A stretch of DNA of 64,000 nt, from assembly GCF_020921035.1 (NCBI RefSeq), contig NC_063150.1:124001-188000 (forward strand), in the 5' to 3' direction. Below are positions 32,280 to 42,745 of this stretch, piece after piece. How positions within the stretch are numbered: position 1 is the first letter of the stretch; each line of letters starts with the position of its first letter. Source of the stretch: Rhodamnia argentea (lineage: Eukaryota > Streptophyta > Magnoliopsida > Myrtales > Myrtaceae). The notes below the pieces were generated by a model. It saw only the letters and a list, made by a program, of their open reading frames with translations. It was not told the DNA's origin and made no database searches. Position numbers and translations under genes: made by a program.

Positions 32280-33778
32280 GGCATGGGATGTAGTAACTGC
32301 AATCAAATAAGATGGATCTTTTCTCCTTTTTTTTTTTTCCTAGATTGCTTCTTTCAAAATGAATTTTGGCTTGCCAAATTCAGACTTTTTACCATTTTCC
32401 ATCAACCACAGTAGCTGGATCAACTAATTTTCATCGCAAAAATATTTCCTTCCAGAACTAAGGATGATTCTATATAATAAAAAAAAACACCCAAACCCTC
32501 TTGGAATATATAAAGGGTGTCACATAAATCAATACCTACGGTAAAAATGAATACGACTTGTAGTATAGTTATGAAAGGTTCAAAAACTTTGGCCTGAAAA
32601 TTAACAGATAACTTTTTGCTTTCGAATGATCAGAACAGACAGGCAGCACCTCCAACAATTATTTGCTAGGTTTCAAAGTTGATCATCAGAGGACAGTGAC
32701 TCTTTGCCCACTCTTCATATGCAAACATTGCTCGTGGTTAATTCGGAATTAGTGCCATGAGGAAATCTCGCATAGTTCTCATGAAAACATAAGAAAAGAC
32801 ATAGTTTATAACTTTTTAATTAGCTGCTCTTAATGTACAAGTTACTAGCAGTTTATCTCCTAACAAAAAGAATATAAAAAAAGTCAGCCCGATTTGATTA
32901 TACAACGTATCTCTGCACTTCCATTTGACACCTATCCTAATTCTTATCTACGAAGGAAGTAATCCACAATACCTGGATACCAAGACAAGAGACTCGACAA
33001 GGCGTATCCTAGGATATGATTGATTGGGCGGCTGGAATCTCCAAGGTTGGAAGCATCATGAACTCGAATGATTTTAAGTCACGGGTAGAGAATTTATGTC
33101 TTTTTCTTTGTTTCCTCAATCTCCCACGTATCATGCAACATACTGATCAAATCGTGGAAAACTGGGAATTGGTAGAGGAAGGTCCGCCAATCAATAATGA
33201 CAAGGCCATCTCTTTCTCCTCCTTTCCACTAATGTCTTCGTTCTTGCCTTACCTCGCACAATTAATTGCATTCGCACCAAGTCGAAACACGCACCATTAC
33301 AACAGATCTCTACCACTCAAGATCGTTCGATAAAAGTTAGTTCAACTGATCTATTAATATTGCTTCGCGAAGTGTTGTTAGCATGATAGTACTTCCGACT
33401 TGCTACAATAGAGAATTTCGGCATGTAACCATTCTTATTCGTTAAGGGATAGTACCACAAACCTGGAATACACCGGCTTATTACTCTTGTGGGGACGATC
33501 TGGACCTTCTCAATATATTTTCCAATTTCTTTCTGAGATAGTAAGACAAGAGACGTCAACTAGATAATAGTCATGCATATTATACTACAAGATAAAGTTC
33601 AAGGCCGAACTGTAATGGCATGAGTCGAGCACCAACTAGAGAGGAAGAGAGAGAGAAAGGAAAAAGAAGGGGGGGGCGGGCGGGGGGGAGTTGCAAATCC
33701 AAATCTGCCGAATCCCTCTTGTTATGATCTTCTACATCCTAGGTCTTCCCGTTCCATCAGGGATCGACAGAAGACGAC
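32280..33778. other. End of unit 3 and intergenic
   Basis: 32330-32880 is the duplicated 3' flank. 32900-33640 shows nothing I can support; a G-rich run (33671-33690) precedes the reductase pseudogene. Confidence 0.5.
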
Positions 33779-34134
33779 ATGAGCGGGATTCTGAAAGAAG
33801 ACGACATGGAGGTGAGGATGAGCGAGATGAAGCTGGAAGTTCATCAGGGATCGAAAGCCGTTTTGGTGAAGAATCTCTACCTGTCATGCGATCCCTACAT
33901 GCGAATCCTCATGAAGTCGACCGCGCAAAGAAAATACATCACTTCCTACGAACTGGGCTCCGTAAGTCTTTCTTTCACTTATTTGGTTCAGCGACAAATG
34001 CCGAAGCTTTAGATTATGGAAGGAAAAGAATGATTTCTTCATTGACAGACATTGTTAATGACAATTTGGCTGATGATGTTGGATGTATTGCAGCCTATTA
34101 CAGGGTATGGGATGGCCAAAATTGTGGTTTCTGG

Positions 34135-36965
34135 TAGGGGTGTCAAAATAAAACCGAACCGTTAACTGAACCGAACCAAAAATTTCACGCATTTCAGTTC
34201 GGTACGGTTTCGGTTTAGGTCATGAAATAAAAAATCATTCTTGTTTTTTTGTTCGGGAAACTTATGACTGATTTGGTTCGGTATACGGTTAACCGAACTA
34301 AAAAAAGTCCCATCTTCTTAAAGGCCCGTTTTATTAACTTAAGCTTTTACAATGCCTCTCTTCTTTTTTACCCCTAAAAAAAGCTCTCCCGTGAAACCCT
34401 AATCAGCCTCTCCTTTAGCATCCCGTCATTGAAGCCCCTCGAGCTCGACCTCACCATCATCAACGTCGAGCACCTCATCAAGCATGCCAACCGGAAGAAC
34501 GGCGACCTCAAGCCATACGCCATCTTCTGGATCGATCTTGATTGCCGCCTCGCCACCAAGTCCAACGATTACGGCTCAACCCGACGTATCCGCAACGAAC
34601 AGTTCACAATCCCTAGCGCCTTCTGCCACCTCGATTCCGTCCTCTCCCTCAAAGTTTTCCACTTTAAACCCTCCGAGATCGCCAAACATTTGGTTGGGTC
34701 CCTCCCGATCCACCTCAAGGACCTGCCCAACTCACAAGATAAGGACTAGATCCGAACGGACGAGCTCATCCGACTGTCCGGTCGACCTCACGGCAAGATC
34801 TAGAGCAAGCTCGATTTCGCTTTGCTTCTCCATAGCCCGTTCTTCTCGTCCCCCCTGCTAAATGGTGTTCTCCTCCTACTTGTCCGAACCTAGCGCTCGT
34901 GCTTGCTGGATTGCTATCGTTGATCTCATCCTGTTCACCGCTCCGCTCTAGGAAGTCTGCTTGGAAAAGGTAAGAGGCAACCACCTATTCTTTCTAAAAT
35001 CTTTCTATGAATGGAAGCAAAAGCAATATTTTGAGCAAAAGAAGAGGCGGCAGTAGTAACGTATTTTGGTTCTTAAACCGATTTCATGCCTTGATGTCAA
35101 ATACTTGCTGTCAAGTTTAATAACAAGTCTAATGACAAAAAAAAATTGTTACTTCAATTTAAAAAAAAATTGTTACTTCAATTTGTGTTGATGTGAAGCC
35201 AAGATCATATCACTCCATTGATTTATGCTATGTATATTTAATTTCGATTTGTTTAACCTTTCCCTCGCATCCCTCAAAAGCCTTGGTCTATTTTAAAAAT
35301 TGTTGGTTGGTGAACGTCTTAGTCTTACTGAACTACATTGTTTTCTCTCTCCATTAGATTGCATGCGATTGCTTTGGCTCCTTGCCTCGCTATCCGCTTA
35401 ATGGCCGACTCTGGATCGCTGCCGGTTGCTTCGACTCCTTCAACACAAGTTCTCATCCAAACAGAAGACACCGTGAGTCACATCTTGATAATCACATTTA
35501 TGGTCTATAGCTTTTTGTTTGTCATTTCATGCCGTGAAATGGGTATCTCTCTCTTGCTACTTCTAGTTGATTTTCTTTTGAAAAAAAAAAGGTCTTGGGG
35601 CACCTCGCTTTAAGGGTTCTATTACGGTAGAGAACCTCTTTGGGTCTTAACTATAGTAATACGAGAGAACAATAAGAAAGGAATGATAATTTATCGGTGT
35701 TTATGCTCTCTTGCGCGATGGAGATTGTTTGCTTAGCTTCCGATCAATAGAGGATTCAGCATTTGTTGTTGACATATCATATTCTTTTACGTAACTCATG
35801 CAGTTCAGATTGGTCTTCTATTTTTGGTTGATTAGTTAAGTACGTGTGTTTGATTTTCTCATAGCAAACTCCAGCTAGGAGAAGGTACATCATTGATATG
35901 GAAGTGGTCTTGGATGATTTCTACATCCTTGTACTGATTCTTCTCTACTTTTCTTGTACAAAAATAGAACTCTCTAGCATCATCTCAAAGCAGCAAGATC
36001 AAGTATAGACCACTCCAACTATCTGATGTATCGAAGACATTGAATTGGTTATCTAGGTCGCAAGTGGAAAAACTACATCCATATCTATCTATCTTCATCT
36101 TGAACATAATCTTGGCCTTTATATCCCCTGTTTGGTAACAAATACCAAAGCTTTTAACATTTACTTTGTTGCAGAGTTTGCAAATTCCTTTCTCTTTTTT
36201 TCCAATTTGTGAATGTGTCTAATTTTGTGCAACATGAGCTCCAAGGCCGAGGTGGGAGATGCTGTGAGGGAGGAGAAGAGGGAGGAGAAGTCATCGCAAA
36301 AGGCAAATGCATTCCCCGGAAAATGTCAATGTCCTCCGGAACCCATAGAAAAATGCTGTAGTTATTGCCTTTTTATCACAGTTTTAATTGGAGAGGTTGT
36401 TGTTAAGTCAGTAATTACTTTGCATGCTAAGTGGTCTTTGTACTAAATCCACCGAATTGTAGAGCATGGGATTCTAACGGGGCAAGTGACTTTGTAGTTG
36501 TACATGTACAAATGACTTGTAATAGCCCATTGTTTTCTCTTTGGGGTTCTTGCCTCTTTATTATTATATTTTTTGGGAAATATTAGTAGATAGATGGAGA
36601 CAGAGATGGAGATTCGGAATTGCAATTAGCAATTTGGATCCTTAATTGATTTCCAAGTAAAGTCAGAATTGATTCTATTTTGTTTGTCATCATTTTTGGG
36701 AGAAGAATAAGTTCCATCGATGCGACAATTACATGAAACAGGGTTATTTTCTTGTTTTAAAGGGTAAATTCCTTTTAAAAAAAAAGGGGAAAAAAACAAT
36801 TAAGAAAATCGAAAAACCGGACAGGATCGAACCGAAAATTCGGTTTGGTTCAAGACGTATTCGGTTCGAGTGATGATCTGGTTCGGTTCATCCATTGACC
36901 ATAATGGTTCGGTTCGGTTATTAAAAAAAACCGAACCGGACCGAACCGCACCGTTGACACCCCTA
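34135..36965 (+). mobile_element. hAT-type element (2831 bp) carrying captured gene sequence
   Basis: Ends TAGGGGTGTCAA ... TTGACACCCCTA are 12-bp inverted repeats, flanked by a perfect 8-bp duplication GTTTCTGG (34127-34134 and 36966-36973), the hAT hallmark. Subterminal stretches are rich in ccgaacc/ggttcgg in opposite orientation at the two ends. No transposase is seen. Interior carries a C2-domain gene fragment at 34408-34960 and exon-like GC-richer stretches at 35400-35475 and 36226-36360 separated by AT-rich sequence, like a captured, intron-bearing transcription unit. Confidence 0.88.
34408..34960 (+). pseudogene. Captured C2-domain (SRC2-like) gene fragment inside the hAT element
   Basis: Frame starting near LKPLELDLTIINVEHL reads as the N-terminal C2 domain of plant SRC2-like proteins: beta strands LELDLTII, a DLKPYAIFWIDLD segment, LSLKVFHFKPSE and LVGSLPIHLKDLP, then after an in-frame stop LIRLSGRPHGKI, the phrase that normally follows the C2 domain in this family. 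Two stop codons (near 34747 and 34801) and loss of the initiator (TTG where an ATG is expected at 34429) make it non-coding as a full protein. G+C content is well above the flanking element sequence. Known role of the family: calcium/lipid-binding, stress-linked membrane proteins. Confidence 0.75.
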
Positions 36966-36997
36966 GTTTCTGGGCACCCGGAATTCGAAGCGGGCGA

Positions 36998-37510
36998 TGT
37001 GACATCCCCGTCCCACATCGCCTAGGAGGAGAGCCTTGGGTTGGTTTATAAGGCTTGGGTGCCCTTAGACTTGCAAGACGCGTTTTCCGGGCGTTGTATG
37101 AGCGACGCTCGGAGGAACAAAACCGTGAGGACTATGTGTCCAAAGCGGACAATATCTTGCAGAGTGGCGCAGCGAAAGCGCGTGGGGCCCAAGGCTGTTA
37201 CGGTTGGTATCAGAGCCAACCTCCGACAGCATGTGGGGCCGCAACGGGCGCTCGCTGGTGCCGCCGAGGGCACGCTGGGACGCCTGTGCCGCTAAGAGGG
37301 GATTATGTGACATCCCCGTCCCACATCGCCTAGGAAGAGAGCCTTGCCTTGGTTTATAAGGCTTGGGTGCCCTTAGACTTGCAAGACGTGTTTTCCGAGC
37401 GTTGTATGGGCGACGCTCGGAGGAACAAAACCGTGAGGACTGTGTGTTCAAAGCGGACAATATCTTGCAGAGTGGCGCAGCGGAAGCACGTGGGGCCCAA
37501 GGCCGTTACA
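36998..37510 (+). mobile_element. TRIM retrotransposon, complete, 513 bp
   Basis: Two LTRs of 205 bp each (36998-37202 and 37306-37510) start TGTGACATCCCCGTCCCACA; the 3' one ends in TTACA, the 5' one in TTACG. By eye they differ at 12 positions (about 94% identical). The 103-bp internal region begins with TGGTATCAGAGCC at 37205, two bases after the LTR, which is the primer-binding site complementary to initiator methionine tRNA, and ends with a purine tract aagagggga at 37294-37302. A 5-bp duplication GGCGA flanks the element (36993-36997, 37511-37515). No coding capacity, as expected of a terminal-repeat retrotransposon in miniature. Confidence 0.95.
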
Positions 37511-37687
37511 GGCGATCTAGTGTGGGGGGAAACCAAATGGGAAGAGTATAGTATTCTTATCGATCCTGACATCCTCTTCAAAATCGCCCAAACCGACATG
37601 CCCCCTTTCCTATTGCACCGGTATTCTTGCTAAGTAGGATGTTCAGCTCGCTAGGCTTGCTGAATGAACAATCTTACTTAGTTGTGA

Positions 37688-37921
<234 letters not shown>

Positions 37922-37993
37922 TGAGGTGAGCTCAGTTGCTATACTTAGAATAGAACCTCATGCTAATTGTGTTCTCTTTTCCCAAAAACATAA

Positions 37994-38143
<150 letters not shown>

Positions 38144-39699: not shown

Positions 39700-42745
<3,046 letters not shown>

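Follow-up and report, generated by a model that had tools for sequence, protein, structure and literature searches.

The window, by which is meant the whole stretch of 64,000 nucleotides of Rhodamnia argentea contig C1 that was analysed, contains an element of 2831 bp (34135–36965) that splits exon 2 of a 2-alkenal/double-bond reductase-like gene (Table 1). Exon 1 of this gene ends before GTAAGT at 33962 and exon 2 starts at 34094 (both placed by eye), and the exon 2 flanks, joined across the insertion, read ITGYGMAKIVVSG-HPEFEAGD in frame. The joined protein scores 55.2 bits for the Pfam domain ADH_N_2, against 36.8 bits for the frame of exon 1 by itself, which continued into the intron, and the joined protein aligns to the 2-alkenal reductase 6ysb across the junction. 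A tandem reductase relative in the window, at about 39802–40300, has an uninterrupted exon 2.

The ends of the element are complementary at 12 of 12 positions (TAGGGGTGTCAA at 34135–34146 and its counterpart at 36954–36965), and we take this sequence to be a typical hAT end; GTTTCTGG stands on both sides. Both the inverted ends and the perfect 8-bp duplication had been claimed in an initial annotation made from the sequence alone, and both are confirmed.

The tandem reductase-like genes occupy 33761–38100 and about 39800–41200 of the window, and the first of them is broken by both the hAT and a second insertion. The latter, at 36998–37510, is a TRIM-like miniature LTR element of 513 bp with two 205-bp direct repeats (193 of 205 positions identical), GGCGA on both sides and, after the first repeat, TTGGTATCAGAGC, presumably a tRNA primer-site motif. 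It lies in the same reductase exon, 24 bp past the hAT duplication, and sequence similar to it, as judged by eye, is found inside another copy of the hAT family (L014).

Table 1. Features of the window element, scanned family copies with matching ends, and related loci. Positions without a contig name refer to the window.
Feature	Location	Strand	Length	Basis or remark
Left target-site duplication, GTTTCTGG	34127..34134	.		Sequence; in exon 2 of 2-alkenal/double-bond reductase-like gene
5' terminal inverted repeat, TAGGGGTGTCAA	34135..34146	+		Inverted-repeat search, 100% complementary
5' terminal/subterminal hAT region, CCGAACC-type repeats	34135..34409	+		Common to family copies
Captured coding fragment of SRC2-like C2-domain gene, from nt 6 of host CDS	34410..34809	+		Alignment to donor L027
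Captured 5' flank of CC-NBS-LRR gene (C6 cluster)	34808..35357	+		91% over 552 columns to L024
hAT transposase exon 1 (MADSGSLPVASTPSTQVLIQTEDT), GT at 35473	35401..35472	+		Family comparison; splice sites by eye
5' part of transposase intron 1, to internal-deletion junction	35473..35689	+		Compared with L009 and L014
Remaining captured 3' flank of response-regulator gene (C1)	35686..36173	+		86%; first bases common to deletion junction
Captured C11 segment, C11a	36177..36440	+		92%; match at C11:3.251 Mb
3' hAT region, subterminal repeats and 3' end	36445..36965	+		Family comparison
3' terminal inverted repeat	36954..36965	-		Inverted-repeat search
Right target-site duplication, GTTTCTGG	36966..36973	.		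Sequence
Family copy L009	C4		5506 bp	Matching ends, perfect 8-bp duplication
Family copy L010	C5		6755 bp	Matching ends, perfect 8-bp duplication
Family copy L011	C7		6886 bp	Matching ends, perfect 8-bp duplication
Family copy L012	C10		6883 bp	Matching ends, perfect 8-bp duplication
Family copy L013	C4		5893 bp	Matching ends, perfect 8-bp duplication
Family copy L014	C8		4814 bp	Matching ends, perfect 8-bp duplication
Family copy L019	C8		1287 bp	Matching ends, perfect 8-bp duplication
Diverged transposases with upstream exon 1	C7:20.285, C4:26.38, C11:11.668 Mb			
BASS/SBF gene piece	L010–L013		489 bp	95%; about 90 bp of donor missing inside
C11b piece	L010–L012		1115 bp	98% to C11:6.44 Mb
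C1b piece	L011–L013		741 bp	94% to C1:19.38 Mb

The hAT family and its transposase

The DNA search of the species' own genome (a 347-Mb assembly of 74 contigs) gave at least 61 matches to the element (the best 40 of 162 candidates being scored) and the transposase search at least 77 (the best 67 of 1908 candidates), and the copy counts of the hAT family are lower bounds. Ends and duplications were scanned at 30 loci, L009–L038, including the two halves of the window itself as L037 and L038, and seven of the 30 have matching ends with perfect, mutually different 8-bp duplications. Because other loci carry such ends, each with a duplication of its own, the ends and duplication of the window copy are not due to chance, and other copies do share the 12-bp ends. 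L011 and L012 are 98.5% identical, yet are flanked by different perfect duplications, which would be an indirect sign of mobility. In the comparison of eight elements that gave this value, the nearest to the window copy is L009 (93.6% over 2863 aligned columns).

Transposase sequence is retained in the longer copies (4.8–6.9 kb). The one in L010 is a frame of 656 amino acids without stops, with Pfam matches to Dimer_Tnp_hAT (3e-31), hAT-like_RNase-H (1.4e-20) and zf-BED (6.4e-7) and a PDB match to Hermes (3.3e-12); those of L009 and L011–L014 show stops, frame shifts or truncation. With its 8-bp duplication, its short inverted ends and the transposase domains of its family, the window copy is a member of the hAT superfamily, as had been proposed. 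Related hAT transposase frames without stops occur at G000:C2:23411768-23413690 and C7:12971072-12973009 (78% and 75% amino acid identity), and no SRC2 match was among those reported for them.

The window copy itself is non-autonomous, its transposase exon 2 being absent. The original statement that it has no transposase holds for this main exon but not for exon 1, which remains. In L010 a small exon, ATGGCC...GAAGACACT, lies upstream of the long frame, is followed by GTGAGT and continues in frame at ATGTCTTCAATGAATG, immediately in front of which stands an acceptor TAG (splice sites by eye). The exon 1 stretch has 16 matches in the genome (16 of 16 candidates scored), and three of them lie 0.9–1.0 kb upstream of diverged transposases with 63–69% protein identity; in L052 the match is confined to the 3' half of the stretch. 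Neither the SRC2 piece nor the NLR piece (the captured CC-NBS-LRR flank) was found in the diverged hAT loci L052–L054. Since it stands upstream of three diverged transposases in which neither of those pieces was found, the stretch at 35400–35475, at first read as another captured exon, is rejected as a host exon and is native to this hAT branch as its transposase exon 1. Two other relatives, L049 and L050, have no exon 1 match, so that the exon is claimed for this branch of hAT rather than for all relatives.

Two loci on C3, L028 and L034, were considered as donors and rejected, as both resemble old remnants of the family, having exon 1 and 3' hAT sequence; L028 also keeps a 21–24-bp tail of the SRC2 capture before exon 1. 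Together with L022 and L023 they make up two pairs of hAT remnants at C3:30.30–30.59 Mb, each about 228 kb apart, which suggests a segmental duplication on C3.

Host DNA carried by the family

Segments of the family copies match at least seven other loci, and the window copy keeps four of them: the SRC2 exon piece (C8), the NLR 5' flank (C6), the response-regulator 3' flank (C1) and C11a. The SRC2 piece is identical to its donor, L027, at 339 of 400 positions (85%), and this donor, at C8:22.178 Mb, is the intact host gene whose existence elsewhere was to be expected, with a CDS of 333 amino acids (Pfam C2, 7.3e-13). The window C2 frame (34378–34749) passes the Pfam C2 cut-off of 22 bits narrowly (23.3 bits, E 7.4e-5); extended past its stop with X it has no Pfam match at 0.001, and in PDB the C2 frame has 10 weak matches, all to a single receptor protein and none better than E 0.14. 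The piece has no ATG because it starts at nt 6 of the CDS, the frame contains no methionine, and in-frame TAG codons stand at 34747–34749 and 34801–34803. The assignment of the frame to the SRC2-like type stands, therefore, for a fragment and not for a gene; the RLSGRPHGKI phrase reported to follow it is present, but beyond the first TAG; and the description of a gene-carrying hAT element applies insofar as SRC2-like gene DNA is carried, in the form of a 400-bp coding fragment. Compared with the window copy, the SRC2 piece of L019 is expanded by an in-frame repeat of 24 bp.

A functional C2 protein from the window frame is unlikely because of the missing methionine and the in-frame stop, and it is very improbable that the frame makes a working protein and that the captured gene has been kept by selection. 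Such a reading can draw on L010–L013, which have no stop over the C2 part, and on the omega values against the host, which are 0.34–0.71 for 11 element copies in this region. However, the start codon was left behind in the capture, stops occur in 9 of 15 aligned element copies, pairs among L010–L013 differ by 2–8 nonsynonymous and 0 synonymous changes, and the L010 frame falls below the Pfam C2 cut-off (20.0 bits), although that of L012 exceeds it (26.5 bits). In six neutral simulations that put 60 changes into the host sequence, at 400 runs each, the 5–95% ranges of omega went from 0.41–1.09 to 0.60–1.78, and 9 of the 11 values lie inside at least one of these ranges; those of L023 (0.40) and L048 (0.34) lie below all six, and given these two low values there may have been some past constraint on the piece. 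The C2 frame would most likely be passenger DNA.

The NLR piece, at about 550 bp, is larger than the SRC2 piece and was missed in the first reading of the sequence. The matching segment in L024 (C6) is followed by a frame with Rx_N, NB-ARC, winged-helix and LRR domains in Pfam, and at least seven matches to the NLR flank lie between C6:4.77 and 4.97 Mb, the Pfam-checked protein being that of L024 only. Since L024, L029 and L036 resemble one another for about 4.9 kb around the segment, it belongs to the NLR units, and the possibility that it is a repeat that moved into NLR genes was rejected.

The response-regulator piece, 673 bp long in L009 and L010, begins at the TAG stop of a frame on C1 ending in LVETLEKKK, with an uncertainty of a few bases because donor and hAT both read AGA.ATGT there. 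The two exons of the donor gene match positions 1–59 and 61–110 of Response_reg in Pfam, with scores of 23.5 and 23.7 bits that, taken singly, do not reach the curated cut-off of 30.2 bits; the second exon has matches to receiver domains in PDB as well. The exon-like stretch at 36226–36360, thought to be a further captured exon, is real but sits in the C11a segment; a C11a peptide has no Pfam match at E 1, and a frame beside it none at 0.01. Longer copies hold the BASS/SBF, C11b and C1b pieces as well (Table 1); none of four frames at the C1b match has a Pfam match, and a PDB search with one of them found none. C11a, C11b and C1b would have passed from host to element, given that C11b and C1b are present in only part of the copies and that the flanks of the C11a and C11b donors are unrelated to the element.

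Order and mechanism of the captures

According to a presence table of 25 rows, SRC2 sequence of more than 180 bp is found in 15 copies including the window, the NLR piece in 8, BASS in 4, C11b in 3 and C1b in 3. The fewer the copies that have a piece, the closer it is to its donor (identity of 85% for SRC2, 91% for NLR, 95% for BASS and 98% for C11b), and for this reason the sequences fit a stepwise capture of these four pieces. L048 has 503 bp of SRC2 joined straight to exon 1, without NLR, and L022 and L023 have 482 bp, the DNA retrieved for them containing neither NLR nor exon 1; in the four copies with NLR and without BASS (window, L009, L014, L015) SRC2 is cut to 397 bp, and in the four with BASS it measures 352 bp, and NLR 295 bp. 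Among 14 copies (the window and 13 loci), 10 have the left breakpoint of SRC2 at CDS nt 6, and in the other four, which are the BASS copies, it is shifted by 2 nt; a breakpoint common to the copies indicates one capture event. A tree of the C2 region, weak at 7 of its 14 inner branches, gives the host a branch of 0.023 and the older element copies longer ones (0.13 for L048 and 0.094 for the L022/L023 stem). C11b and C1b are not nested, being found in L010, L011 and L012 and in L011, L012 and L013 respectively, and a simple series has to be supplemented by loss, recombination or gene conversion between copies. The ordering concerns 5' captures and does not extend to the two pieces of the 3' half, C11a (about 92%) and the response-regulator flank (about 86%).

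Captures are present also in the longer, transposase-bearing copies, L010 holding both the C2 piece and the uninterrupted transposase frame, and the window copy is a later deletion derivative. Relative to L009 it lacks about 2.67 kb (counted by eye), with a TAA overlap at 35687–35689, and is in this respect a Ds-del-like internal deletion of a longer family member. With high probability, the window copy is a non-autonomous, internally deleted copy of a hAT family that gathered host gene fragments in its longer, transposase-bearing copies.

Comparison shows which family the element belongs to, which donor loci match, in what order several pieces were captured, where the deletion junction lies and how the empty site reads, and the steps that link these findings may be reconstructed as follows. 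Fragments would have been copied in via template switching during the repair of breaks or gaps in the element, and trimmed in later repairs; the window copy would have lost about 2.7 kb, comprising the end of intron 1, transposase exon 2 and part of the 3' flank piece, and would have moved into the reductase exon with transposase supplied in trans. In L017 and L018 a 78-bp hAT stretch lies on both sides of the response-regulator piece (the left copy in L017 being shorter, with 45 bp of L028-type match), and adjoining sequences overlap by 2 bp (AG) at SRC2/NLR, by 1 bp at NLR/exon 1 and by about 5 bp at BASS/NLR and to the left of C11b, as read by eye and without a chance model. The duplication and the short overlaps fit with template-switch copying in repair.

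A different origin, in which two nearby family insertions are mobilised with the DNA between them and their inner ends decay, is a published model for Pack-TYPE elements from several superfamilies, hAT among them (PMC8903248). For the present family it is improbable: the donors are spread over five contigs (C8, C6, C1, C11 and C3), and at four donors (L024, L025, L027 and L033, loci of 4–7 kb) the sole match to the element of at least 40 bp is the captured piece itself. Moreover, the outer pair is the only end-type inverted pair in the window element when repeats of at least 12 bp are sought, and the 78-bp duplication fits repair copying better.

Another question is whether the hAT usefully gained regulatory DNA, with the NLR 5' flank driving exon 1 and the response-regulator 3' flank serving as 3' end. 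In favour of this, the NLR piece, found in at least eight copies, stops 61 bp before the NLR ATG in L024, and its junction with the hAT, on the same strand, is 43 bp from the exon 1 ATG; TATATTTAA occurs in L010, L024 and L029 as well as in the window copy; and the response-regulator piece, which begins within a few bases of that gene's stop codon, follows the transposase stop of L010 at a distance of about 230 bp. On the other hand, TATATTTAA is altered in the NLR unit L036, the native promoter may reside in the 5' terminal DNA, and the 3' piece contains one poly(A)-like hexamer (AATAAT) of the three kinds sought. L011–L013 keep 84 bp of the response-regulator piece, yet multiplied, and of the 551 bp of the NLR piece L010–L013 retain 295. 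A useful gain of this kind is doubtful, and slightly more so the fuller reading of the sequences in which the hAT lineage would be rebuilding its own transcription unit, with the upstream region and 5' leader of an NLR gene before exon 1, a response-regulator 3' flank behind the transposase, and gene pieces still being added. If this were true, transposase expression could follow immune-receptor regulation.

Known systems and meaning

Gene capture by hAT elements, which the initial annotation considered less documented, is in print for Hatvine-6 (PMC2528002), maize Ds2/Ds-l4 (PMC3260210) and Pack-hAT (PMC8903248), and the comparisons that follow concern the available portions of these papers. 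Like Pack-hAT, the window copy has hAT ends, an 8-bp duplication, no working transposase and host gene DNA between its ends with donors elsewhere (SRC2, NLR 5' flank, response-regulator 3' flank); Pack-TYPE elements are, however, defined as non-autonomous, whereas here captures from at least seven loci occur also in transposase copies, one of them uninterrupted (PMC8903248). The lineage as a whole is not purely Pack-TYPE, given the uninterrupted transposase of L010. The same source describes a maize Pack-PIF cluster with stepwise addition of two gene pieces (PMC8903248). In grapevine Hatvine-6, elements with a common transposase and ends have variable regions matching host exons, introns and non-genic DNA, but these regions are often unique or shared by few elements, while several captures here are common and layered around the transposase exons (PMC2528002). 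Maize Ds2-22, Ds-l4 and Ds-del offer internal-deletion derivatives and gene fragments with introns captured by a hAT family; they are non-autonomous, and the portion of the paper available describes no captures in Ac itself (PMC3260210). Animal Pack-TIRs, which include Pack-hAT in frog, have been explained by template switching with microhomology, in gap-filling and FoSTeST models, and are described in the accessible text without layered multi-donor capture (PMC8277862).

A literature search at the level of titles and the beginnings of abstracts, mainly of open-access papers, found among the papers listed no transposase-bearing hAT lineage with layered captures and no NLR upstream DNA before a transposase. 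The element is known in kind; what is unusual is that captures accumulated in a transposase-bearing lineage and that NLR upstream DNA is fused just before exon 1.

How cut-and-paste elements pick up genes is unsettled between template switching in repair and the fusion of neighbouring insertions. The hAT family described here is a readable record, within one genome, of donors, breakpoints, later trimming and, for several pieces, order, and the presence of this record in transposase-carrying copies makes the question of capture testable by sequence. The family is likewise a concrete test of whether a transposon can borrow the control region of an immune gene.
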